A stretch of 9,484 bases of DNA from Balneolaceae bacterium SMO_bin1 (lineage in GTDB: Bacteria > Bacteroidota > Rhodothermia > Balneolales > Balneolaceae), in the NCBI GenBank assembly GCA_003123965.1, contig NNSL01000443.1, positions 1 through 9,484 of the forward strand, written 5' to 3'. Position numbers and translations under genes: made by a program. The notes under the pieces are model-generated. The model was not told where the DNA came from. It worked only from the letters and a program-made list of their open reading frames with translations, and made no database searches. Below are positions 1-9,484 of this stretch, in pieces (position 1 is the stretch's first letter; each line of letters begins with the position of its first letter).

Positions 1-80
1 TTGTTTTTTACGCATCCGAAAACCAGGTGAACATTACCGATCTAGTGCTATCACGCCTGACTTCATCAAACTCAAACTAA
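1..80 (+). CDS. OmpH/Skp-family periplasmic chaperone, C-terminal tail only (cut by window edge)
   Basis: The frame starting at base 3 is open to the TAA at 78-80 and encodes 25 residues containing VFYASENQVNITDLVLSRL. It lines up with the end of the next gene once that gene is frame-corrected (ILYAS...YDITDEVMEEL). The shared pattern of a hydrophobic strand, Y-A-S, then an I-T-D helix is the usual end of OmpH/Skp proteins, trimeric periplasmic chaperones that escort unfolded outer-membrane proteins. The stop lies 23 bases before the next start, so the two are tandem paralogues, probably one operon. In related bacteria such pairs follow bamA; that gene would lie outside this window. The identification rests on a short tail and on the paralogue match. 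Confidence 0.65.
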   Translation, partial: VFYASENQVNITDLVLSRLTSSNSN

Positions 81-103
81 TTTAAATTTATATTTACTCT
101 GTT

Positions 104-553
104 ATGATAAAACGAACTATTTTCTTAACGGCTTTATGTGCAGCATTTTTACTAACCGGGCTTTCAACGGAAACGCACGCTCAGGTTACCAATCAAGAGC
201 GCATCGGATATGTAAATCCACAGGCCATTCTGCAAAAAATGCCTGAATTGAAAGCAGTGCAGCAACGACTGCAAAATTTTGTTGAAAAGCAGCAAAGCCA
301 GCTTGATCAGCGACGTGAAAAGGTAAACGAGCAAATTGCCCAGTTCCAGGAAGATCAGGGTGATATGAACGCCCAAGGTCGCCAGCAGGAGCAAGCCCGG
401 CTGGGAGAGCTGCAGGCTCAACTGCAGCAGGCCGAGCGCCAAGCCCAGCAGGAAATTCAGCAGAAACAGCAGGAGCTGGTAAGCCCGCTCTACCAGGAAA
501 TCAACAAGAGCATCCAAGCCGTGGCTCAGCAAATGAATCTTCATATGTGCTGA
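104..553 (+). CDS. ompH: OmpH/Skp-family periplasmic chaperone, frame ends early at a probable frameshift
   Basis: The 149-residue frame starts with a signal peptide: a K-R pair, a hydrophobic stretch at about residues 5-20, and a likely cleavage after A26 (T-H-A|Q). Mature protein begins with the family's first strand (RIGYVNPQAIL, about 33-43), followed by a very Gln/Glu-rich coiled coil at about 45-135, which forms the tentacle helices of Skp-type chaperones. These proteins bind unfolded outer-membrane proteins in the periplasm. The usual last strand and helix are missing from this frame, which ends NLHMC-stop. They are found intact just downstream in other frames (see 544-662). Corrected for two one-base deletions the gene would end at 662 and give about 186 residues, normal for the family. 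The ATG at 104 has an AT-rich leader and no clear Shine-Dalgarno. Family call is firm; whether the gene is really broken is uncertain. Confidence 0.85.
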   Translation: MIKRTIFLTALCAAFLLTGLSTETHAQVTNQERIGYVNPQAILQKMPELKAVQQRLQNFVEKQQSQLDQRREKVNEQIAQFQEDQGDMNAQGRQQEQARLGELQAQLQQAERQAQQEIQQKQQELVSPLYQEINKSIQAVAQQMNLHMC

Positions 554-662
554 ACACGACTACCTCGAACGGCGATGTTATTATCCTTACGCTTCTCCTG
601 AAGCTCAGGAGCAGTACGACATCACCGATGAGGTTATGGAAGAGCTTGGTATTGGTAGCTAA
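544..662 (+). pseudogene. ompH: Out-of-frame C-terminal part of the ompH gene (two -1 shifts)
   Basis: After the in-frame codons for N-L-H (to 544), the expected end of the protein continues in two steps. Bases 544-588 read YVLNTTTSNGDVIIL in one frame. Bases 588-662 then read YASPEAQEQYDITDEVMEEL plus GIGS and TAA in a third frame. Each break is explained by one missing base, most simply a T in CAT-TAT near 544 and a T in CTT-TAC near 588. Both segments match the C-terminus of the upstream paralogue, so this is coding sequence and not intergenic DNA. Either the gene is a recent pseudogene or the two gaps are sequencing or consensus errors in T runs; I favour error because nothing else in the gene has decayed. 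Confidence 0.75.
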
Positions 663-688
663 TCGTTACAGCTTTTAAGGCGAATATG

Positions 689-722
689 AAAAGGCAGCTG
701 CATTACGCAGCTGCCTTTTTTA
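689..722 (+). terminator. Strong intrinsic terminator after ompH, possibly bidirectional
   Basis: A perfect 9-bp GC-rich stem GGCAGCTGC (693-701) / GCAGCTGCC (707-715) with the 5-base loop ATTAC is followed by TTTTTT (716-721) and preceded by AAAA (689-692). The A run pairs with the T run, extending the stem. It lies 27 bases after the corrected ompH stop at 662. The minus-strand VWA gene ends at 751 facing it, and the AAAA gives a short U tract in that direction too, so it may end both transcripts. Confidence 0.9.
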
Positions 723-750
723 TTTAGTTTAGATTTTATGCAGATGAAAA

Positions 751-1863
751 CTACCGCACCCGTTTTTTCCGGTTGCGGATGTAATCTTCAAATATGTAAC
801 CGCCTAAATCATCGAGTGAAGCAAAATAGGCACGCCCCTTATTCGCCTCGGTAAGCTCGCGCACAAAGCCCTGCAGGTAGGGGTCGCGGGCAATCATAAA
901 GGTGGTGATGTCGATATTATCGCGCCGGCATTTTACGCCTTCATCAAGTACTTTATTCACAATTTTGCGGTCAAGCCCAAAGCTGTTTTTGTACATTTTA
1001 CCGTTCTGGATCATGCAGGAAGGCTTACCGTCCGTGATCATGAAAATCTGCTTGTTGGCATACTTGCGGCGATGCAGCAAGTGGCGGGCAAGCTCCAGCG
1101 CCTGCTGGGTGTTGGTGTGATAAGGGCCGGCCTGCAGGTAGGGAAGGTCTTCAATTTCAACTTCCCAGGCTTTGTTGCCAAAAGCCACAATATCGAGCGA
1201 ATCTTTGGCAAAATCGTTAAGAATAAGTTCAGAGAGCGCCATGGCTACCTTTTTGGCCGGGGTGATGCGGTCTTCGCCGTAAAGCACCATGGAGTGGCTT
1301 AGGTCAATAAGCAGCACTGTAGCTACGGATGTGTAGTGATCGGTATCGTGCACCCGCAGGTCCTGCTCGCGCAGGTTAAACTGGTCAATGGTGCTATGCT
1401 TCAGCATGTTCATCATGGTGCCCACGCTGTCTATATGGCTGATGTCATCACCGTGTTTCCAGTTGCGGGTTTCGGGCTGTCGTTCAAGTCCCTTGCCGGT
1501 GTAATTGGTTTGATGATGACCGCTGGATCCCTTTTCAAGATCCTTGAAAATTTCGCGCAGTGAACGCTGCCGGAGGCTCCGCTCGGTTTTGCGGGTCATC
1601 ACCATAATATCCTGGTCGGTGTCTGATTCGATATACCCCCGATTTTCAAGCTCTTCTACAAAGTCTCCGAGCCCAAAATCTTCATCAAACTGATCGGTGA
1701 GGTCGTACTCATTATCAATATCGGTAAGCCATTTTAATGCTTGCGATACATCACCGCCGGCTATGGTCAGCAGTTCTTGGAAAATGTCCAGCAGGGTATC
1801 AAACGGCGTTTTATCACTCTTTTTGGCGAACCGCTCGTCCCATTCTACGTACTTGAAATGCAT
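751..1863 (-). CDS. VWA (von Willebrand factor A) domain protein with intact MIDAS, CoxE/ChlD-like
   Basis: A 370-residue cytoplasmic-looking protein; no signal peptide or membrane segment is seen. The C-terminal half is a VWA domain (about residues 180-345) with the full metal-ion-dependent adhesion site: D187-x-S189-x-S191 in LLIDLSHSM, T250 in PYHTNTQQAL, and D278 in MITDGKPS. The N-terminal half is acidic and charged, without a domain I recognise. Bacterial proteins of this kind resemble the VWA halves of MoxR/ChlI-type AAA+ ATPase pairs, which remodel or load metals into partner proteins. No such ATPase is in this window, so the partner is unknown. I chose the ATG at 1863 because M-H-F-K-Y-x-x-W-D looks like the conserved beginning; a GTG at 1890 would add nine residues. 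The gene converges on ompH and diverges from rnhB. Domain call is secure, function is not. Confidence 0.85.
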   Translation of the reverse strand: MHFKYVEWDERFAKKSDKTPFDTLLDIFQELLTIAGGDVSQALKWLTDIDNEYDLTDQFDEDFGLGDFVEELENRGYIESDTDQDIMVMTRKTERSLRQRSLREIFKDLEKGSSGHHQTNYTGKGLERQPETRNWKHGDDISHIDSVGTMMNMLKHSTIDQFNLREQDLRVHDTDHYTSVATVLLIDLSHSMVLYGEDRITPAKKVAMALSELILNDFAKDSLDIVAFGNKAWEVEIEDLPYLQAGPYHTNTQQALELARHLLHRRKYANKQIFMITDGKPSCMIQNGKMYKNSFGLDRKIVNKVLDEGVKCRRDNIDITTFMIARDPYLQGFVRELTEANKGRAYFASLDDLGGYIFEDYIRNRKKRVR

Positions 1864-1950
1864 ACAAAAAAGATTGACTTTAAGACTCACTATTCACAAC
1901 GAATGCATCTGAAAATTAATTCACTTACGATCGACCATTAGAGGCTATAA
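1864..1950. promoter_or_regulatory. Divergent intergenic region between the VWA gene and rnhB, with an rnhB ribosome binding site
   Basis: These 87 bases separate two divergent starts and must hold both promoters or leaders. AGAGG at 1940-1944 lies six bases before the rnhB ATG at 1951 and is the only convincing Shine-Dalgarno in the window; it supports that start. I see no full match to either promoter consensus, so no -10/-35 is placed. Confidence 0.4.
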
Positions 1951-2583
1951 ATGCAAGGTAAAACAATAAACCGCCTGGAATTTGAGCAACAATTATGGGA
2001 TGAAGGCTACACCCGTGTGATGGGACTGGATGAAGTGGGCCGCGGCTGTCTTTCGGGTCCGGTAGTGGCCGGGGGCGTGATTTTCAAACCCGACACCCGT
2101 ATTGATGCCATCCGCGACAGTAAAACACTGGGGCTGGAAGAGCGCAAAGAGCTGGTGCACATCATCAAGCAGAAAGCCGCGTTTTGGACCGTGCAGCAGT
2201 GCGATCCGCACGAAATCGACGAGCTGAATATCTTATGGGCCTCTATCAAAGCCATGCAAAAGTGTGCCAACGCGGAGAACGCCGAGCCGGAATACCTGCT
2301 GGTGGACGGCAACCGCTTTGGGGCAAGCATGTACCCGCACCAGTGCATTGTTAAGGGCGATGACCGCTCCATGAGCATCGGCGCAGCATCAATTCTGGCG
2401 AAAGTATACCGGGACGAGCTGATGATTCGCCTGCATAAAGAATTTCCGCATTTTGGGTGGAATACCAATGTAGGATATCCCACGCGCAAGCATTTCGAAG
2501 GGCTGCAGGAATACGGTATCACCAAACATCACCGCCGCAGTTTTAAGCTGCGTACCGAAAAACAATATTCCGCCGGTGACTAA
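1951..2583 (+). CDS. rnhB: Ribonuclease HII
   Basis: A 210-residue type 2 RNase H, which nicks the RNA strand of RNA-DNA hybrids and starts removal of single ribonucleotides misincorporated into DNA. The motif GLDEVGRGCLSGPVVAG at 25-41 supplies catalytic D27 and E28 and the G-R-G that reads the RNA-DNA junction. DSK follows at 56-58, the third acidic residue D119 is in LLVDGN, and SIGAASILAKVYRD (142-155) supplies the fourth, D155. The late GYPTRKH and HRRSF motifs are also present. Length is normal and no key residue is missing. It is a metal-dependent cytoplasmic enzyme. Its TAA overlaps the stop codon of the convergent histidine kinase gene by four bases (2580-2583). It appears to be a single-gene unit. 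Confidence 0.97.
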   Translation: MQGKTINRLEFEQQLWDEGYTRVMGLDEVGRGCLSGPVVAGGVIFKPDTRIDAIRDSKTLGLEERKELVHIIKQKAAFWTVQQCDPHEIDELNILWASIKAMQKCANAENAEPEYLLVDGNRFGASMYPHQCIVKGDDRSMSIGAASILAKVYRDELMIRLHKEFPHFGWNTNVGYPTRKHFEGLQEYGITKHHRRSFKLRTEKQYSAGD

Positions 2584-5558
2584 AGCTCGTCTGCAATGAT
2601 GCCGCTGCTGGAGCCTTTAATTTGCTGGCGCTCAAATGAGAATGTTACGGCGGTGCCGTCATCACTCGTGATTTCAAAATCGGCCTTAAGCTGTTTAGTA
2701 AGCGTGTCGATGATAGTATAACCCATCGACTCTTTGATGTTTTCTATCTCCGATTGGGTCATGCCTACACCGTTATCGCGTACTTCTACACTTACCCGAT
2801 TTTCATGCTCCTGCACGTCAATGATAACCTGGCCGGAATTGAGCCCCACAAAAGCGTGCTTCAGCGAATTAACAATCAATTCATTAATAATGAGGCCACA
2901 AGGTACGGCTTGGTTAACATTTAGCTTAATGTCGCCGCAGTTAAGTGAAAGCTCAATATTTTCTTGCAGGGCCATGGTATCCCGCATGTTCGAGATGAGA
3001 TCTTCGAGATAGTTCTTGAAATTGATATTAGAGAGTGAAGACGTTTGGTAGAGTTTTTCGTGGATGAGCGCCATGGATTTTATGCGCAGCTCGCAGTTTT
3101 TCAGAATGTTTTTCAGCGTTTCGTTATCAATGTTGAAACGCTGAATGGTAAGCAGACCCGATACTACGGCCAGATTGTTTTTTACGCGGTGATGCACTTC
3201 CTGCAGCAGCACTTCACGCTCCTGAATGGTTTGCTTCAGCTTGGTTTCGTATTCAATGCGGCTGGTAATGTCCTGCGCTATAATCTGCAGGCCGTTCTGG
3301 CCGCCTTCGAGCACTACGGGGGTTGACTGCAGCAGAATATGCCGCTGTTCGCCCTCTTTTTCCATTTTATATGTGGCCGTACCCAGATTTTCGCCATCTA
3401 AAACGCGCTGCATACGCTGTTTGGCTTTTGAAGGATTGGTGAGTGGAATAACATCAAATATTGACTTTCCAAATAGATCATCTGGGTCTTGCAGACCAAG
3501 TGACTCGGCAGCTGCAGGATTTGCGAAGTCAATTTCTGCGTTTTCGTTGACCAGTAGAATATAGTTGGGTGCGTTAGCCACCAGGTTCTTCCAGCGCTTT
3601 TTGCTTTGCTGCAGCTTGTGGTGCGCCAGTATATTTTTTATTTGAAACGCGAGTGTTTCTGTAAGAGCGTCAATGAGCTTGCGCTCTTCCATTAAAAATA
3701 CGCCTTCACTGCTTTTACCTTGCTGTTCAGTGTAGGCAATGGTAATGGTAAGCTTTTTGTCAAATACCTGTTCGCTGGTGGCTGTTTGTGTCCACTCGGT
3801 TTCTCGGAAATCTGCGGTTTTGTAAGTGGTGGCGTCGTAGGTTATAGCTGCTTCCGTAATGTTGGGGTACTGCCATCCCTGGGGCAGGTAATGAACGGCC
3901 TGTTCAAGCAGTTCCTCAATAGTGAGTTCTTGTTCGCTGAGGCTGGCAATTTTATACAGGCAAGCCTGTTCCTTTACCCGCTCTTGCAGTTCGTCCATCA
4001 TTTCTTTTTGTCCGGTAATATCTGTGGAAATACCGCACACATGATTTTCAAATCCCGGCACGCCCTGCAGTGGATATTTTATGGTCTGGTAGTACTTCAT
4101 TTGCCCATCAAGCGGGAACTTTTCTTCGAACTCAATGGCCATGCCCTTATTACGTACTTCTTTGTCGTTCTCCTGTATCTGCAGCGCAAATTGATCGGGG
4201 TGCAGCTCATAATCTGTTTTGCCAAGCACCTGTTCTTCCTCAACGTTGAACAAAGAGAGGTAGGCATCATTAACCAGCTGATATCGGCCCTCAGGGTCTT
4301 TCACGTAAATAATTGAATCCGTCTGGTTGATGATAGCATCAAAGAGTTGTTCTTGTTGTCGGCTCTTAAACTCTGCTTTTTTCAAGTCGGCCAGGTTGGT
4401 ACATGTGCCCAAAATGTATCGCTGCCCCGACCGCACAAACTTGGTGCCGGTTATATAAAAGGGAATAGAATGGCCGTCGGCGTGTAAAATATCTACCTCT
4501 ACGTCAGCACTACCGGTTTCAATGACCTCTTGAACTTTGGAAAGGATGAGATCGTGATCATCTTCGCGAAAGAAATCGAGCATGTGCATCTGCTCTATTT
4601 CTTCTGCGGAATAGCCCAGCTCCTTTTCCAGGTTTTTATTCCATTTCACATACTGCTGCTCCTCATCAATCATGTAGAAGATGCCCGGCATGCTCGTTAT
4701 GGCGCTGTTAATAAACTCTTTTTCCTGCTCCAGCTGTTCGCGGGTTTCTATCAATTCCGTTACTTCATTCTGGATGCCGATATGGTGGGTTACTGTCCCT
4801 TCCTCATTTTTAACAGGCGAAATATTTAGCTGATTCCAGAACATACTGCCGTTTTTACGGTAATTGCGCAGCACAAACTGCCCGCTTTCTTTATTTTGGA
4901 GGCTTTTGGCAATTTCTGAAATTTCATCCTGTTCGCGGTCATCAGCCTGCAAAAAGCGGCAGTTTTTACCCAGTATCTCCTCTTCGGAGTATCCGGTCAT
5001 TTCTTCAAACCCCTTATTGCAGTAAATAGCGGGATTGTCGTCTTGGGTGGCATCAGTGATAAGCACCCCGGTTTCGGTGGCATCGAGGGCCTGCCGGTAA
5101 ATGCGCAGCTGCTTATTCTTTTCTTCGAGCTCCTCATTTTTCTGTTTTAGCTGCAGTGAATATTTGCGCTGCTTCAACAACATTTCAATACGGCTTTGCA
5201 GAATCTGCTTGCGTGCCGGTACATAAATGACGTCATCGGCGTATTCTAGAATGGAGCTGCTGGCACGAGCGCTGGCTTTATTCTTGGAAAGCACTAATAC
5301 CGGGCAGAAGGTAGGGGCAGCATTTCGCTTCAGGCTTTCAATTTGTTTCTTATTTCTGCGAAATGCCTGGTCATCGAGTATGCATAGGTCAAAAAGCTGA
5401 TTGCCAAGCCCGTTGTCGCTTACTTTCACGTTCAGTGTATCGGGCAAATACGAATTAATGAGGCTGCTATCTTTACTGTTGCGCATATTCAGCAGTACTA
5501 CGGGCTTATACTCCTCACTAATTGCTTTTAGCTGGGCATTATTTGCAAAAGAATCCAT
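2580..5558 (-). CDS. LOV/multi-PAS hybrid-type sensor histidine kinase (HisKA_2), putative blue-light receptor
   Basis: A 992-residue soluble kinase with no membrane segment. Domains in order: a receiver-like region at about 15-130 lacking the acidic pair; a coiled coil at 130-155; a LOV domain at 155-270; PAS at 280-392; PAS at 400-517; a GAF-like domain at 525-645; PAS at 652-768; HisKA_2 from about 780; HATPase_c to about 976. The LOV domain has the photoactive motif GKNCRFLQ (C200, codon 4959-4961), NKGFEEMTGY before it, and the flavin-contact motifs NYRKNG, FWNQLNISPV and GIQNEVT. In known LOV proteins this cysteine forms a blue-light-induced adduct with FMN. The phospho-accepting histidine is H790 in EVHHRVKNNL; the ATP site shows N892/N897 in INELIVNSLKHAF and DNGVGM at 928-933. 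The gene starts 29 bases after kaiC and probably shares its transcript. Partner regulators are likely the two upstream receivers, which is inference. Kinase and LOV calls are firm; the N-terminal receiver is structural guesswork. Confidence 0.93.
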   Translation of the reverse strand: MDSFANNAQLKAISEEYKPVVLLNMRNSKDSSLINSYLPDTLNVKVSDNGLGNQLFDLCILDDQAFRRNKKQIESLKRNAAPTFCPVLVLSKNKASARASSSILEYADDVIYVPARKQILQSRIEMLLKQRKYSLQLKQKNEELEEKNKQLRIYRQALDATETGVLITDATQDDNPAIYCNKGFEEMTGYSEEEILGKNCRFLQADDREQDEISEIAKSLQNKESGQFVLRNYRKNGSMFWNQLNISPVKNEEGTVTHHIGIQNEVTELIETREQLEQEKEFINSAITSMPGIFYMIDEEQQYVKWNKNLEKELGYSAEEIEQMHMLDFFREDDHDLILSKVQEVIETGSADVEVDILHADGHSIPFYITGTKFVRSGQRYILGTCTNLADLKKAEFKSRQQEQLFDAIINQTDSIIYVKDPEGRYQLVNDAYLSLFNVEEEQVLGKTDYELHPDQFALQIQENDKEVRNKGMAIEFEEKFPLDGQMKYYQTIKYPLQGVPGFENHVCGISTDITGQKEMMDELQERVKEQACLYKIASLSEQELTIEELLEQAVHYLPQGWQYPNITEAAITYDATTYKTADFRETEWTQTATSEQVFDKKLTITIAYTEQQGKSSEGVFLMEERKLIDALTETLAFQIKNILAHHKLQQSKKRWKNLVANAPNYILLVNENAEIDFANPAAAESLGLQDPDDLFGKSIFDVIPLTNPSKAKQRMQRVLDGENLGTATYKMEKEGEQRHILLQSTPVVLEGGQNGLQIIAQDITSRIEYETKLKQTIQEREVLLQEVHHRVKNNLAVVSGLLTIQRFNIDNETLKNILKNCELRIKSMALIHEKLYQTSSLSNINFKNYLEDLISNMRDTMALQENIELSLNCGDIKLNVNQAVPCGLIINELIVNSLKHAFVGLNSGQVIIDVQEHENRVSVEVRDNGVGMTQSEIENIKESMGYTIIDTLTKQLKADFEITSDDGTAVTFSFERQQIKGSSSGIIADEL

Positions 5559-5587
5559 TAAATAAAATCACTTATATTCATGGTCAA

Positions 5588-7024
5588 TTATGCCGTATGC
5601 TCAGGGAGTCCGGTTAAAATGCCGCGCATGTCTTCCAGGGGATTACCAACAGCAATACCATCGGGTGTTATCTCAAATTCACGAATAGTATTTTCAAATC
5701 CGCTCAGCCGTTTCTTCAAGACGCCGATAGCTTTCTTAAGCCGGCCGTCCAATTCCAGGTAGCGCAGAAAAATTATGTTATCAGCCAGGTAGCTGGCATT
5801 CATATTGGTAGCCTTAAAATCTCCTGTAATATTCTGCGATTCATTCACAAGCAGGGTAGTGATACCCATATTTTGCAGGTATATGGTTAATGTATGCAAC
5901 GATTCCAGAACGTTTTTTTCACGCACTGCCATGCCATATCCGCCAATGGAATCAATCATTACCATTTGGGTGTGATGCTCTTCAATATCGGTTTGCACGT
6001 TTTTGGCAAATTCATCCGGGGAATAGGAGAGGGGTTCAATGGACACAATTTCCAGGTTGCCGGCTTCTATCATATCATCAATGGGAATGTTCACCATTTT
6101 TGAGCGATGGATGATTTGTTCTCGCGATTCTTCGAAACTGTACAGCACGGCTCGATGGTTGCGCTCGGCGGCCTGTTTTATGAACTGCAGCCCCATATTG
6201 GTTTTACCTACCCCGGTAGGACCAATCAACAAATTGGTTGTTCCTTTCTCAATTCCGCCGTGCAGCAGGTGGTCAATTCCTTGTATGCCCGACGAAAGCT
6301 GTTCTTTTTTGAACGTTCGGTTGTATTGATTGGGGCGCAGCTGCGGAAATACGGTTATGCCGCTGCCGGTGATGGAGAACGAATGGAGCCCGTTCATGTA
6401 GTCAGATCCGCGGAACTTGCTTACCTGTAGTTTTCGCCACGGTTCTTGGTTCATAAGTTTAATGATGCCGTCTACCCAAAACGTGCTGTCATCGCTGGCC
6501 TTTTCATCAAAATATTCCGATATCATCAACAGGGTGGCCCCTTGGCCGGTAATATACTTTATAAGCGAAAGCCCCAGCTTGCGCATCTGGTAAGCATCAT
6601 CATTTAGCATGCGCAGTATGGTTATGGAATCGAGGACCACGCGGCTGGGGTTCAGTTCTTCGAAATGCTGCCGTAGGGTATCAAGCAGGGGCTGTTGTTC
6701 TACTTCAGCCGGAGAAAATACGCTGTAGGTGTTTCCGTTTTCGTCTAAATTATCGCTGGGGCTTAAGTCCAAAATAGATACGTCGGCCAGATTGATATCC
6801 ATGGCTTGGGCATTTTGGCGAATACTCTGCTCCGATTCCCCAAGACTGATATACAGGCCATTTTCTTGATTTTTTGCAGCCTGGGCCAGAAAATGAAGCC
6901 CCAGGGTTGATTTTCCGGAGCCGGGCCCGCCCTGAATTAAATATGATTTTTTGGGCAGAAGGCCGCCATGTAAGATTTCATCAAGCCCTTCAATACCGCT
7001 TGAAATTTTGTTTAATGTGTCCAT
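5588..7024 (-). CDS. KaiC-like two-domain RecA-fold ATPase
   Basis: A 478-residue protein with two tandem KaiC domains. The first (about 1-230) has Walker A GPGSGKST at 33-40 and Walker B VVLDS ending at D132-S133. The second (about 240-478) has Walker A GPTGVGKT at 268-275, the E298-E299 pair in YSFEES and Walker B D358 in VMIDSI. KaiC proteins are cytoplasmic hexameric ATPases; the cyanobacterial one is the clock core and autophosphorylates in its second domain. Here the first-domain catalytic pair is reduced to G62-E63. Aligning by eye to cyanobacterial KaiC from memory, the phosphorylation site S431/T432 corresponds to S411/Y412 and T426 to T406. The C-terminal peptide that KaiA grips in cyanobacteria is absent: the protein ends soon after GNPLEDMRGILTGLP. 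This places it among the KaiC homologues of non-photosynthetic bacteria and archaea. It is probably co-transcribed with the LOV kinase and may relay its signal. Confidence 0.93.
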   Translation of the reverse strand: MDTLNKISSGIEGLDEILHGGLLPKKSYLIQGGPGSGKSTLGLHFLAQAAKNQENGLYISLGESEQSIRQNAQAMDINLADVSILDLSPSDNLDENGNTYSVFSPAEVEQQPLLDTLRQHFEELNPSRVVLDSITILRMLNDDAYQMRKLGLSLIKYITGQGATLLMISEYFDEKASDDSTFWVDGIIKLMNQEPWRKLQVSKFRGSDYMNGLHSFSITGSGITVFPQLRPNQYNRTFKKEQLSSGIQGIDHLLHGGIEKGTTNLLIGPTGVGKTNMGLQFIKQAAERNHRAVLYSFEESREQIIHRSKMVNIPIDDMIEAGNLEIVSIEPLSYSPDEFAKNVQTDIEEHHTQMVMIDSIGGYGMAVREKNVLESLHTLTIYLQNMGITTLLVNESQNITGDFKATNMNASYLADNIIFLRYLELDGRLKKAIGVLKKRLSGFENTIREFEITPDGIAVGNPLEDMRGILTGLPEHTA

Positions 7025-7063
7025 TTGAAATTAAATACTTTCAATAATTGATAGTGAACAATG

Positions 7064-7084
7064 GGTGCAGGAATTTCTTGCACC
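7064..7084. repeat. 21-base operator-like palindrome upstream of kaiC
   Basis: The left arm GGTGCAGGAA (7064-7073) and right arm TTCTTGCACC (7075-7084) are reverse complements except for one pair, around a single central T. The centre lies 50 bases upstream of the kaiC start codon. Size and symmetry fit a binding site for a dimeric regulator; a leader hairpin is the alternative. Confidence 0.45.
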
Positions 7085-7197
7085 AGAAAAAATATTTAGT
7101 GTTTTTTACTCCCCGCTCTTATAAAAATGGGCGGTGGGTAAAGTGAGTCGGTTTTCTTTTGCTATAGAAAATAAGGCACTTAATGCAAATGGGGTTG

Positions 7198-7236
7198 ACG
7201 TAAAATACGTAGGGCCTAATCTACGTATTTTCACGT
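7198..7236. repeat. Long inverted repeat with TACGTA motifs between the receiver gene and kaiC
   Basis: The left arm ACGTAAAATACGTAG (7198-7212) and right arm CTACGTATTTTCACGT (7221-7236) pair perfectly over 11 bases next to the 8-base spacer GGCCTAAT, and over 15 with one bulged base. Each arm also contains the 6-base palindrome TACGTA. No T run follows on the minus strand, so it is not an ordinary terminator. A tandem operator for a regulator, perhaps the LuxR-type protein encoded upstream, or a structured leader are the options. Confidence 0.5.
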
Positions 7237-7366
7237 AGAACTCTTGGGCTTTCTTCCTCAAATTTCCTTCAGAATTGGTTTTTACATTCTAGAATTTACT
7301 TATTCAAGAAAGTTTAAATTTTTGCAGCAAGTTACCTGTGCGCGGGCAGGTTTAGCCGGCACGTGC

Positions 7367-7723
7367 TTAACCGTAAAGTTTAATTTGCTGTACCCATTCT
7401 TCTGTAGGCGTGTCAAACGAGATATGGTTAGAGCAACCGGCATCCAGAATGGGCTGAAGAAATTGATCGGGGTAGCCGTTGTGTACGGCTATATACGTGT
7501 CCGACAACTTTAATTCCCGAAGTGATTGTATCTGCTCTTCTTTAGGATTTGGCAGGGCATCCACATCAATAAGCGCAATGTCAAATGCAGGGCCGGAATG
7601 TTCGGCGCTCTTTTCTTTAAAATCGCGTAAGGTACGCATGTGTACATCAAAGCCGTTTTCAGAAAGTACTCGCTCAACGGACTGATTTAATATAGTAGGC
7701 CGTCCCAGATAAAGTATCCTCAT
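7367..7723 (-). CDS. Stand-alone degenerate receiver (pseudo-receiver) domain protein
   Basis: A 118-residue protein that is a single receiver-like domain with the expected alternation of strands and helices. The third strand FDIALIDVDALPNP carries D53 in the place of the phosphorylated aspartate. The acidic pair after strand 1 is replaced (ILYLGRPT), strand 4 ends YIAVHNG without the usual T/S, and the conserved lysine before the last helix is absent (HISFDTPTEE). Such domains usually cannot be phosphorylated in the standard way and act through protein contacts. It lacks an output domain. It lies between the LuxR-type regulator (145 bases upstream) and kaiC (342 bases downstream) on the same strand, so a role as adaptor in the same pathway is likely. 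The fold call comes from pattern reading only; divergence lowers certainty. Confidence 0.75.
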   Translation of the reverse strand: MRILYLGRPTILNQSVERVLSENGFDVHMRTLRDFKEKSAEHSGPAFDIALIDVDALPNPKEEQIQSLRELKLSDTYIAVHNGYPDQFLQPILDAGCSNHISFDTPTEEWVQQIKLYG

Positions 7724-7805
7724 GTATAGTAAGATTAGAAAAGTGACTTCTCACAAAAAGCGGTTTACTGAATGGGATAACGGATAGAGCGGTGGTGGTT
7801 CAGCA

Positions 7806-7813
7806 CAAACGTA
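7806..7813 (-). promoter_or_regulatory. Candidate -7 element (TAnnTTTG) for the pseudo-receiver gene
   Basis: On the minus strand the bases read TACGTTTG, an exact match to the Bacteroidota -7 consensus, which would give a leader of roughly 75 bases before the start at 7723. No clear TTG is found about 20 bases further upstream, so only half of the promoter is supported. The element overlaps one arm of a 7-bp inverted repeat, CAGCACA (7801-7807) / TGTGCTG (7839-7845). Confidence 0.35.
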
Positions 7814-7868
7814 GACGTGACTTTCCAAGGTAAGGCCCTGTGCTGCCCAATGTAAAATTTAATTCAAA

Positions 7869-8528
7869 TTAACCAGTACCCTCTATATTGTATACATTAT
7901 GCTTGATAGCATATTTAACCAGCCCGGCGGTATTTTTGGCGCCCGTTTTCTGCAGTATATTTCGCCGGTGGGCATCTACCGTTCGTACGCTAATAGACAG
8001 CAGATCACCGATTTGTTTATTGGTGTATTCCCTGCAAATTAGATTCAATACTTCCAATTCGCGTTCGGTGAGTTCAGCGGATGACTCTTGCTCACTCGAG
8101 GTATCCTCGAGCAGCCCAGTTAAAATTTTTATGGAATCATCACAGAGGTATTGATTGCCGCCTTGAATGACCCCAATGGCATTAATTAACTCTTTTTTTC
8201 CTCGTTTTTTAAAAATATACCCTGCGGCACCGGCTTTCAGAACGGGTTTAATTTTCTCAGTATGTTTGTTATCACTTAAAGCCAAAATTTTCAAGTCGGG
8301 AGCAATATCGGTGATTTGCTCTATAATTCCCGGTACTTCAACGTCTGGCAGGCTTAAGTCGAGGATAAGCAAATTATGCGCGCCAGTTTTGATACGCTCA
8401 AAAAGCTCCTCACTGTTTTTAACTGAATCACTCACACGCAGGCCGTCTTCATCGGCAATAATAAGCTCTACGCCATCACGGAATATATGGTGATGGATAG
8501 CAAGCAATATGTCGGTTGTTTCACTCAT
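7869..8528 (-). CDS. NarL/FixJ-type response regulator with LuxR helix-turn-helix, atypical receiver
   Basis: A 219-residue DNA-binding regulator. The receiver (about 5-122) keeps the phospho-acceptor D57 in LLILDLSLPD, S85 in ILALSD and K107 in GAAGYIFKK. The acidic pair is lost, however: the family's A-D-D-H reads A-I-H-H at 10-13, while the following IFRDGV is standard. The LuxR-type helix-turn-helix covers about 151-214, with LTERELEVLNLI, then NKQIGDLLSISVRTVDAH and RRNILQKTGAKN as the recognition region. It is the first gene of the signalling run on the minus strand and is the likely transcriptional output of the LOV kinase, though pairing is inferred from proximity. Loss of the acidic pair suggests weak or phosphorylation-independent control. 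The ATG at 8528 has no Shine-Dalgarno. Family call is firm. Confidence 0.93.
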   Translation of the reverse strand: MSETTDILLAIHHHIFRDGVELIIADEDGLRVSDSVKNSEELFERIKTGAHNLLILDLSLPDVEVPGIIEQITDIAPDLKILALSDNKHTEKIKPVLKAGAAGYIFKKRGKKELINAIGVIQGGNQYLCDDSIKILTGLLEDTSSEQESSAELTERELEVLNLICREYTNKQIGDLLSISVRTVDAHRRNILQKTGAKNTAGLVKYAIKHNVYNIEGTG

Positions 8529-8624
8529 TTGGCTCTGTAATTATGCTAGTTTTAAACGCAAACGCTGCACCGTTCGGGGAGTTCGCGTAACGCTTGAAAA
8601 TGACTGAAATCTGAGCCTAGGATA

Positions 8625-8652
8625 ACTTATTTGCAGCTACTTATAAATAAGT
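8625..8652. repeat. Inverted repeat ACTTATTT/AAATAAGT upstream of the LuxR-type regulator
   Basis: Perfect 8-base arms at 8625-8632 and 8645-8652 flank a 12-base spacer. The element is about 100 bases upstream of the regulator's start codon. Its last two bases are also the first two of the next hairpin, so on RNA the two structures cannot both form completely. AT-richness makes chance occurrence fairly likely. Confidence 0.35.
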
Positions 8653-8684
8653 GGTTTAGCCTAAATTGCGGTAGGCTAAAACAC
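8651..8684 (-). terminator. 13-bp hairpin between rodA and the LuxR-type regulator, possible rodA terminator
   Basis: Arms GTGGTTTAGCCTA (8651-8663) and TAGGCTAAAACAC (8672-8684) pair over 13 bases with one mismatch and an 8-base loop. On the minus strand the stem is followed by TTATTTAT, a weak U-rich tract, about 105 bases after the rodA stop. It could end the rodA transcript. The weak tract leaves open an operator or structured leader for the regulator gene. Confidence 0.4.
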
Positions 8685-8789
8685 GTATCAAAGCAGGGCG
8701 TATATTTCCATTTTTTAAATTATAAGATTTTTAAATCTTTTCTTCACATTTGGCAGCAAGGCCGGCTATTATAAACGTAGTTCTGGCAG

Positions 8790-9484
8790 CTATCGGTAAA
8801 TGCTCATCTGCCGTTTATTAAAGTCCAGGTTCAGGCAAATGGCCAGCATAAGGGTATTGGTCAGAAGGGCCGAGCCGCCATAGCTGATGAAGGGCAGGGG
8901 CAGGCCAATAACGGGCAGCAGACCCGTAGCACTGCCGATATTTATGAAAAAGTGAATAAAGAATACCGATGCCACACCCACCATGGTAATTTGGGCAAAG
9001 GGGTGCTTATGGTTTTGGGCGCTGTTTAGCAGCCTGAACAGGAGCCCCATAAAGAGTATGAGAACAAATGAGGCCCCCACAAAGCCAAACTCCTCGGCAA
9101 TTACGCAGTAGATAAAATCGGTCCACTGCTCCGGCAGAAAACGCAGCTGGGTTTGGGTGCCTTCCATAAAGCCCTTGCCGTACACTCCGCCCGAGCCAAT
9201 TGCCGTTTTGGCCTGAATAACATTCCAGCCTGCTCCCTGTGGGTCAAAATCGGGGTTTGTAAAGGCTTCAATGCGCCCGCGCTGGTACGGCTGCAGCACC
9301 TGATACAGCGCTACCTGCACGCCGATTACAATCAAGATGCCAAACACAAACGATGAGAGCGTGAGCCATGTTCGCCGCTGGATAAAGAAAATAAGGAACG
9401 TGAATATGATTGCGGCCATCAGCCCCCAGTACCATCCAATGATACACAGGTAGCCGATTACTGCCGGTGAGATAATGAAAAGTG
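8790..9484 (-). CDS. rodA: RodA, SEDS peptidoglycan glycosyltransferase, C-terminal 230 residues (cut by window edge)
   Basis: The frame is open from the window edge to the TAG at 8790-8792, so the ATG at 9417-9419 is internal and not the start. RodA is an inner-membrane polymerase that builds glycan strands with a class B penicillin-binding protein in the rod-shape elongation complex. The fragment shows several hydrophobic membrane segments. It has the SEDS motifs NPDFDPQGAGWNVIQAKTAI, GSGGVYGKGF, GTQTQLRFLPEQWTDFIYCV with the presumed catalytic Asp (codon 9117-9119), AEEFGFVG, and LPFISYGGSALL near the end. The residue before T-D-F is W, where many RodA proteins have H; all other motifs are intact. 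It probably ends an elongation operon lying outside the window, and its relation to the signalling genes downstream seems to be only shared direction. Confidence 0.96.
   Translation of the reverse strand, partial: LFIISPAVIGYLCIIGWYWGLMAAIIFTFLIFFIQRRTWLTLSSFVFGILIVIGVQVALYQVLQPYQRGRIEAFTNPDFDPQGAGWNVIQAKTAIGSGGVYGKGFMEGTQTQLRFLPEQWTDFIYCVIAEEFGFVGASFVLILFMGLLFRLLNSAQNHKHPFAQITMVGVASVFFIHFFINIGSATGLLPVIGLPLPFISYGGSALLTNTLMLAICLNLDFNKRQMSIYR

Follow-up and report, generated by a model that had tools for sequence, protein, structure and literature searches.

Candidate Light-Gated KaiC Signalling Module without KaiB in Balneolaceae Bacterium SMO_bin1

Homologues of KaiC occur widely beyond the cyanobacteria, and little is known of what feeds into them. 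Here, we report the analysis of a 9,484-nucleotide stretch of Balneolaceae bacterium SMO_bin1 (GenBank assembly GCA_003123965.1, contig NNSL01000443.1, positions 1 to 9,484, forward strand; hereafter, the window), in which a two-domain kaiC homologue is followed by the gene of a histidine kinase that joins an N-terminal pseudo-receiver (PsR) to a LOV domain. The kaiC-kinase pair is conserved within the order and in further groups, and may form a light-gated KaiC signalling module that works without KaiB.

Gene content of the locus

Four consecutive genes on the minus strand lie where a first-pass annotation of this DNA had placed them. They encode a NarL/FixJ-type regulator with a LuxR-type helix-turn-helix (HTH) domain (7869-8528; PF00196 [GerE], 57.3 bits; Response_reg, 53 bits), a stand-alone pseudo-receiver of 118 amino acids (aa) (7367-7723), a two-domain KaiC homologue of 478 aa (5588-7024), and a sensor kinase of 992 aa (2580-5558), with the domain order PsR, LOV, PAS repeats, HisKA_2, and HATPase. 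The claimed spacing of 29 bases between kaiC and the kinase gene was borne out. The same annotation had described the genes as one run; their order stands, but the run is not operon-like throughout, with gaps of 145 bases between regulator and pseudo-receiver and 342 bases between pseudo-receiver and kaiC. A single four-gene operon is not supported: the 342-base gap before kaiC has its own conserved element and the full set recurs rarely.

The LOV domain of the kinase (residues ~153-277; 4728-5102, minus strand; alignment A6) has YtvA and other LOV proteins, LOV kinases among them, as its closest solved structures (PDB search, E ~1e-35). Its signature residues are GKNCRFLQ, containing Cys200 (codon at 4959-4961, minus strand), NYRKNG, FWN, and GIQ. 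The LOV photoreceptor motif, which we take to be a photoadduct Cys in GxNCRFLQ plus flavin-contacting Asn, Asn, and Gln, is complete, so that the LOV identity proposed for this domain is genuine by sequence, and the residues predict flavin binding. PAS stretches follow the LOV domain, then HisKA_2 (2979-3200, minus strand; PF07568, 88.3 bits; EVHHRVKNN) and HATPase_c (2628-2897, minus strand; PF02518, 41.6 bits), the arrangement of a HisKA_2 histidine kinase. Against the NCBI LOV-kinase equivalog, the protein scores 181 bits (cut-off, 450 bits). In the related kinase L002:11448-14798 (L numbers are our locus numbers; G numbers, used below, denote genomes), GVL replaces GIQ; with Leu at the expected position of the signalling glutamine, its photoresponse may be weakened.

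The KaiC homologue has two PF06745 stretches and both Walker A motifs, and solved KaiC structures align with almost all of it (best E, 9e-61). The named proteins closest to it come from Fodinibius/Aliifodinibius (63-66% identity), followed by those of Balneolaceae, Gracilimonas, and Balneola; scanning contigs with this one KaiC sequence confirmed no relative. Glu298-Glu299 of CII is kept, and across 33 close relatives CII has both catalytic glutamates and CI one. The phosphosite pair of cyanobacterial CII, which we take to be numbered Ser431-Thr432, corresponds to Ser411-Tyr412 in the window and in 33 of 33 rows of alignment A1; the Thr432 position is Tyr, and the neighbouring Ser is kept. A wider KaiC set (n = 25) has Ser-Tyr in 22 cases, Ser-Asn in 2, and Thr-Tyr in 1. 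The C-terminus is ~20-25 residues shorter than in solved KaiC chains, the alignment to these chains (518-519 residues) stopping at 491-495, 2-3 residues before the end of the window protein. In cyanobacteria, the C-terminal tail of KaiC binds KaiA, and this tail is gone here. The protein may autophosphorylate on Ser411 and hydrolyse ATP.

No kaiB had been visible to the first-pass annotation, and this extends to relatives: kaiB was found in none of the 12 kaiC-bearing genomes of the order, which may be incomplete, by a search that finds it in 3 of 128 order genomes. A family scan of eight window proteins gave no KaiA or KaiB match, and the genomes were not searched for kaiA. Judged from its sequences, the module is not a KaiABC clock, because kaiB was not found in the 12 kaiC genomes, Thr432 is replaced by Tyr, and the C-terminal tail is gone. 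In each of the three kaiB-bearing genomes (G054, G061, and G095), ~135-142 bases separate two kaiB matches, with a partial third match in G061; none of the three has a window-type KaiC at E <= 1e-60.

Two atypical receivers had been noted at the locus. Both are present, and the count was incomplete: the module has three, namely the PsR at the kinase N-terminus, which had gone unreported, the stand-alone 118-aa protein, and the regulator's own receiver. The PsR occupies residues ~18-135 (5154-5507, minus strand), and no Pfam family matched the first 140 kinase residues. Its AlphaFold2 model has a receiver fold (predicted local distance difference test [pLDDT], 85). Asp62, Pro86, Pro114, and Arg123 are invariant in 16 of 16 rows of alignment A2 (partner kinases of relatives), in which the acidic pair and Lys of working receivers are missing. 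A receiver-fold pseudo-receiver joined to a histidine kinase is a CikA-like feature of the window kinase. Kinship of the PsR fold to KaiA or CikA was rejected, as neither is among the best 50 solved structures listed, where ordinary receivers lead. The 118-aa protein has a confident receiver-fold model (AlphaFold2 pLDDT, 87; Foldseek receiver matches), no Pfam match at E <= 0.1, and BLAST relatives that adjoin kaiC in L001 and L003; by eye, it keeps Asp53, and its acidic pair and Lys are gone. Large protein searches, with a word filter that misses distant kin, returned only the protein itself and one other for the first 150 kinase residues, and only itself for the 118-aa protein.

The window regulator has the LuxR-type HTH of NarL/FixJ proteins without a full phosphorylatable receiver: both acidic-pair residues are gone, and Asp57 and Lys107 are retained. 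The pair is broken in seven of seven module regulators (both residues gone in five; one Glu remaining in L002:9007-9639 and L033:8253-8897), in which Asp57 and Lys107 nevertheless remain; two regulator paralogues adjoining the module (L002:8079-8804 and L033:7344-7994) have it intact. Because its receiver lacks the full Mg-binding pair, the window regulator is probably controlled by protein contact.

Conservation of the kaiC-kinase pair

We searched 128 genomes of the order of G001 (an uncultured Aliifodinibius), for which the label Balneolales is used. E-value and bit cut-offs were our choice; the genome searches scored part of the candidates in each genome, and several counts are among the matches listed. 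Window-type KaiC was found in 12 of the 128 genomes (E <= 1e-60), and a PsR kinase is the next same-strand gene downstream of kaiC in 13 of 13 loci (the window, L001-L006, L008, and L033-L037; kaiC of L008 is cut by a contig end). With PsR model A2 (16 rows, kaiC-adjacent kinases only), matches above 75 bits were found in all 12 kaiC genomes (13 places, with a second copy in G019) versus 2 of the 116 others. The next match scores 43.2 bits, and some match at E <= 0.001 occurs in 120 of the 128 genomes, these weak matches presumably being ordinary receivers. The two exceptions among kaiC-less genomes are G032, with a kaiC remnant beside a LOV kinase, and G050, with no kaiC on the stretch examined. 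In G032 (L054:10128-10514), kaiC is a shortened frame of 129 codons that lacks internal parts, through either decay or an assembly fault, and adjoins the PsR-LOV kinase. The second PsR kinase of G019 (L036:2713-5700) has no LOV domain and lies 3.3 kb from kaiC. Among 394 genomes sampled from the phylum, nine have a PsR at E <= 1e-15, eight of them with window-type KaiC; the ninth, G825, has none within 1.5 kb.

Conservation beyond the pair is patchier. L037 repeats the gene order of the window (rodA, regulator, kaiC, kinase, rnhB, VWA gene), and a NarL-type regulator stands beside kaiC in the window, L001, L002, L003, L033, L036, and L037. A stand-alone pseudo-receiver adjoins kaiC, as judged by BLAST, in the window, L001, and L003. 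The full four-gene set with LOV was found in the window and L001 only; L003 has the set without LOV. Of the joint conservation in relatives that the first-pass annotation had put forward as a check, the pairing of kaiC with a PsR kinase therefore stood, and the exact LOV four-gene set did not. Since the full set is rarer, the conserved unit is the kaiC-kinase pair.

The pair extends to other groups. Within the phylum of a Chloroflexi metagenome-assembled genome (MAG), here Chloroflexota, 13 of 301 genomes have window-type KaiC, and in 11 of these 13 loci a PsR kinase lies on the same strand within 500 bp; of the other two, one runs into a contig end, and the KaiC of the second is distant. In five loci (L007 and L066-L069), a single receiver stands between kaiC and the PsR kinase that follows. 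Among plasmids (PsR stretches from 11 of 16 records examined), those of Halorussus carry HalX regulator, kaiC, and PsR kinase in an order parallel to that of the window module, those of Haladaptatus have kaiC followed by a single receiver, and one cyanobacterial plasmid (Acaryochloris) pairs kaiC with a divergent PsR kinase. Elsewhere, at four Haladaptatus loci (L078, L080, L081, and L083), a response regulator (HalX type in L078) precedes a PsR kinase with no kaiC within 4 kb, so that the PsR kinase can live apart from kaiC. In the phylum of G430 (a Methanosarcinaceae MAG), labelled Halobacteriota, 45 of 392 genomes have a PsR at E <= 1e-15. Loci were examined in 30 of these 45 genomes (30 of the 60 places listed), and 27 of their 32 PsR kinases lie within 500 bp of kaiC. 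The PsR-bearing members are called haloarchaea-like, since their GC content (>= 0.56 in 26 of 30 loci) and proteins (five kinases checked, all strongly acidic) suggest haloarchaea.

Distribution of the LOV domain

LOV domains were counted by one motif (the Cys, Asn, Asn, and Gln positions). The motif is present in 10 of 15 PsR kinases at loci of the order (G032 included) and in 13 of 32 haloarchaea-like PsR kinases, most of which read DCRFLQ; a fourteenth case, with a split frame (L111), was left out. A stricter motif (NCR) found three haloarchaea-like loci and is too strict given DCRFLQ. For one haloarchaea-like case (L105), LOV identity is backed by solved-structure matches (E, 1e-29). Of the 23 LOV-bearing PsR kinases, 22 have kaiC within 500 bp; for the remaining one, the distance is 880 bp.

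On the KaiC tree, the LOV label makes three changes among 12 labelled rows of the order and is no more clustered than shuffled labels, a pattern as from early gain and repeated loss. A 31-row LOV tree unites the 10 kaiC-linked LOV domains from the order (88/81); they nest in a supported set of 16 (97/94), to which 6 of the order's 7 remaining LOV domains belong and none of the 14 archaeal rows. The seventh is placed with the archaeal rows, and support for the deepest fork is weak. The kinase cores differ as well: HisKA_2 was found in 10 of 10 partner kinases scanned from the order, and of three haloarchaea-like LOV kinases scanned, two have a weak HisKA and the third no H-box family. Because the LOV tree separates the two sets and the cores differ, LOV appears to have been wired to KaiC more than once, and separate recruitment in the order and in haloarchaea-like kinases is the simplest reading that these comparisons suggest.

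Promoter elements

Half-sites TAGGY/RCCTA stand in a fixed layout upstream of the regulator or kaiC in relatives. In the window, the tripartite operator-like element RCCTA-N8-TAGG-N7-RCYTA (8648-8676, minus strand) lies ~120-148 bases upstream of the NarL-type gene. Written as RCCTA-N8,9-TAGG-N7-RCYTA, the pattern has eight matches in 252 kb (14 loci), all eight upstream of the regulator or kaiC. A second element, ending (A/G)CGTCA, has six matches, all 142-248 bases upstream of kaiC and including window positions 7196-7211. The kaiC promoter element of the window (7196-7231, minus strand) is an inverted repeat, AAAATACGTAG-N8-CTACGTATTTT, running into TACGTATTTTACGTCA. Expected matches in simulated sequence are ~0.05 for each pattern; both patterns were written after promoters, that of the window included, had been inspected, but nothing in them restricts matches to module promoters. 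Neither pattern matches in L005, L006, L008, L054, or L035, the last of which has a similar sequence by eye, and sites occur in L004 and L034 without an adjacent regulator.

With CC fixed in each half-site, the gapped pattern gave 10 matches in 12 genomes versus 5 in the reversed control; weight is given only to the seven at the module and three near-identical ones at a second locus. At this second operator locus (L098, L099, and L100, in G016, G003, and G001), the site lies 67-70 bases upstream of a stand-alone pseudo-receiver of ~129 aa, in which the acceptor Asp position is Asn by eye; a PAS kinase of ~728 aa follows, and a NarL regulator and a large PAS kinase are neighbours. The locus is possibly a second member of the regulon. 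Sites of the NarL family are palindromes of such a kind, and the NarL-family regulator would be the natural, if putative, reader of the operator palindromes.

Two further readings of these sequences were considered. The 16-mer TAGGTGANNTSACCTA is perfect in 3 of 11 genomes, each time once and at the module; its one-mismatch matches are background, because the reversed control gave more (31 versus 23). The operator half-sites form a terminator-like hairpin at 8680-8655 (minus strand), which in the window might also end the rodA transcript. In L001, L003, and L036, by contrast, the gene beyond the element runs divergently, so that there the element cannot serve as its terminator.

Comparison with known systems

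Makarova, Galperin, and Koonin are said to have proposed in 2017 that KaiC-family ATPases are hubs of archaeal signal transduction, some of them being KaiC-receiver fusions. PMC5847659 cites this hub role; the proposal concerns archaea, and neither a LOV-bearing PsR-kinase partner nor operators appear in the citing passages. The nearest experimental work concerns CirC of Haloferax volcanii, a two-domain KaiC of 52.7 kDa whose gene is adjacent to fixL, which is kinase-like; expression of the cir genes depends on light and dark and is disturbed in mutants (PMC3941300). On that side, a Haloferax larsenii PsR kinase has no LOV motif, and no NarL-type regulator is annotated on its stretch. In the cyanobacterial KaiABC/CikA system, KaiC likewise has two domains, and the histidine kinase CikA carries a pseudo-receiver that binds KaiB (PMC12632262). 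This system differs from the window type, in which the PsR is N-terminal, kaiB was found in 0 of 12 kaiC relatives, and Ser-Tyr replaces Ser-Thr.

In non-photosynthetic myxobacteria, a photoreceptor kinase has also been proposed to be linked to KaiC homologues. The photoreceptor there is a red-light bacteriophytochrome, the link comes from STRING predictions, and the kaiC homologues are said to be expressed independently of light (PMC11832031). LOV histidine kinases share with the window kinase the LOV signature and the HisKA_2/HATPase core, and differ in that the latter has a PsR before the LOV domain, a kaiC partner, and further PAS domains. The regulator resembles NarL/FixJ proteins in its LuxR HTH, Asp57, Lys107, and palindromic sites in relatives, and departs from them in the acidic pair, broken in module members. 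We found no account of kaiC being paired with a LOV kinase in listings and passages of the open-licence literature (PMC10359499, PMC6627678, PMC5847659, PMC12632262, and PMC11832031), nor was there joint mention in it of KaiC and Balneola or of LOV, haloarchaea, and KaiC.

Interpretation

We read the locus as a light-gated KaiC signalling module without KaiB, with a two-domain KaiC and a PsR kinase as its constant parts and LOV added in this lineage, and give this reading about an even chance of being right. Blue light would form a flavin-cysteine adduct in the LOV domain and so alter the kinase. The strict co-occurrence of the two genes points to the PsR as the part that would dock the kinase on the KaiC ring, where the light state and the ATP-bound or phosphorylated state of KaiC would be read together. 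Output would pass through the NarL-type regulator, itself governed by protein contact; binding of a regulator of this NarL family to its own promoter and to the kaiC-kinase promoter would close a feedback loop. In bacteria and haloarchaea-like genomes alike, gene content gives good support to a light input to KaiC; at the protein level, this input is a prediction.

Several observations weigh against this reading. The PsR counts lean towards adjacency, because model A2 was built only from kaiC-adjacent kinases. The PsR kinases of G050 and G825 stand without kaiC on the stretches examined. On haloarchaeal plasmid stretches, kaiC is found within 500 bp of only 6 of 13 PsR kinases, and within 3 kb of 9. 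Of the 12 loci for which upstream sequence exists, only 7 have a NarL-type regulator next to kaiC. LOV is absent from 5 of 15 PsR kinases of the order, from all 11 in Chloroflexota, from all 13 on haloarchaeal plasmid stretches, and from 19 of 32 in haloarchaea-like genomes, which makes light at most an optional input. LOV-like matches (match only, motif unchecked) are common in Halobacteriota, occurring in 67 of 364 genomes (sampled separately from the 392 used in the PsR survey), so that co-occurrence of LOV and kaiC in archaea is less striking. Such matches are rarer in the 128 order genomes, with 17 places at >= 140 bits, 9 of them in kaiC-partner kinases; the LOV model used (A6) comprises nine kaiC-adjacent LOV domains, eight from those partner kinases and one from the window.

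Conserved neighbours can, moreover, share a regulon without contact, and the kinase might be an ordinary blue-light two-component sensor that is co-regulated with a separate KaiC ATPase in a distinct pathway, both being needed under like conditions, with no physical relay between them. The shared promoter elements would account for co-expression on these terms, and the canonical NarL regulators that adjoin the module in L002 and L033 are possible phosphotransfer targets. What follows kaiC across phyla, however, is the non-catalytic PsR and not the kinase core or the sensor, which co-regulation alone does not predict, and we regard this account as unlikely, though a serious competitor. Mere chance adjacency of kaiC and kinase is ruled out for practical purposes by conservation of the pair within the order and in further groups.

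A redox or stress sensor, with LOV acting through its flavin and not as a light sensor, is in our view very improbable. LOV domains can respond to redox, and LOV-less partner kinases carry other PAS domains in the LOV position, as this account would have it. The photoadduct Cys is nevertheless present in 9 of 9 rows of A6 and in 14 of 21 rows of a further listing, the other 7 resembling ordinary PAS by eye, so that no LOV domain clearly devoid of the Cys came to light, although the cysteine evidence is weak, since the A6 rows were picked by motif and such picking favours cysteine. KaiC might instead be a timer, an hourglass or a KaiB-independent rhythm that the LOV kinase resets with light. 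In its favour are cirC of H. volcanii, which lies by fixL and belongs to the light/dark-dependent gene set disturbed in cir mutants (PMC3941300), and the H. larsenii locus L040, where a window-family kaiC is followed by two proteins beginning with PsR-like sequence. The orthology of cirC to the window KaiC is, however, taken from architecture alone, gene order differs in part (orc2 directly upstream of cirC in H. volcanii; orc1/cdc6 ~5 kb upstream in L040), and the same paper reports no light/dark change for the single kaiC homologue of Halobacterium NRC-1. With the missing kaiB, the Tyr at Thr432, and the lost tail also against it, we consider a timer improbable.

A broader form of the light-gated module can be put forward only tentatively, and we rate it as rather doubtful: a KaiB-independent machine common to bacteria and haloarchaea, in which the PsR, an adaptor unlike KaiA or KaiB, would dock kinases on KaiC, LOV would have been plugged in at least twice, and pseudo-receiver transcription factors would read out the result, making this a second, independent coupling of light to KaiC. 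The pairing of LOV kinase and kaiC in related bacteria and salt-loving archaea makes light input to KaiC outside cyanobacteria testable. Since this subfamily has a defined adjacent partner kinase and a defined non-catalytic adaptor domain, the chemistry of the photoreceptor is known, and an operator is predicted, how KaiC functions without KaiB becomes a question for two purified proteins, and the LOV-PsR kinase is a candidate light input for the unexplained light-dependent kaiC expression of haloarchaea.

Other observations

The family scan assigned the other window genes to rodA, rnhB, a VWA gene, and an OmpH-like gene, and no known RNA element reached Rfam thresholds in the window. The OmpH-like frame (104-660) has a stop at 553 and a plausible continuation in another frame to ~660, possibly owing to a frameshift in the contig.

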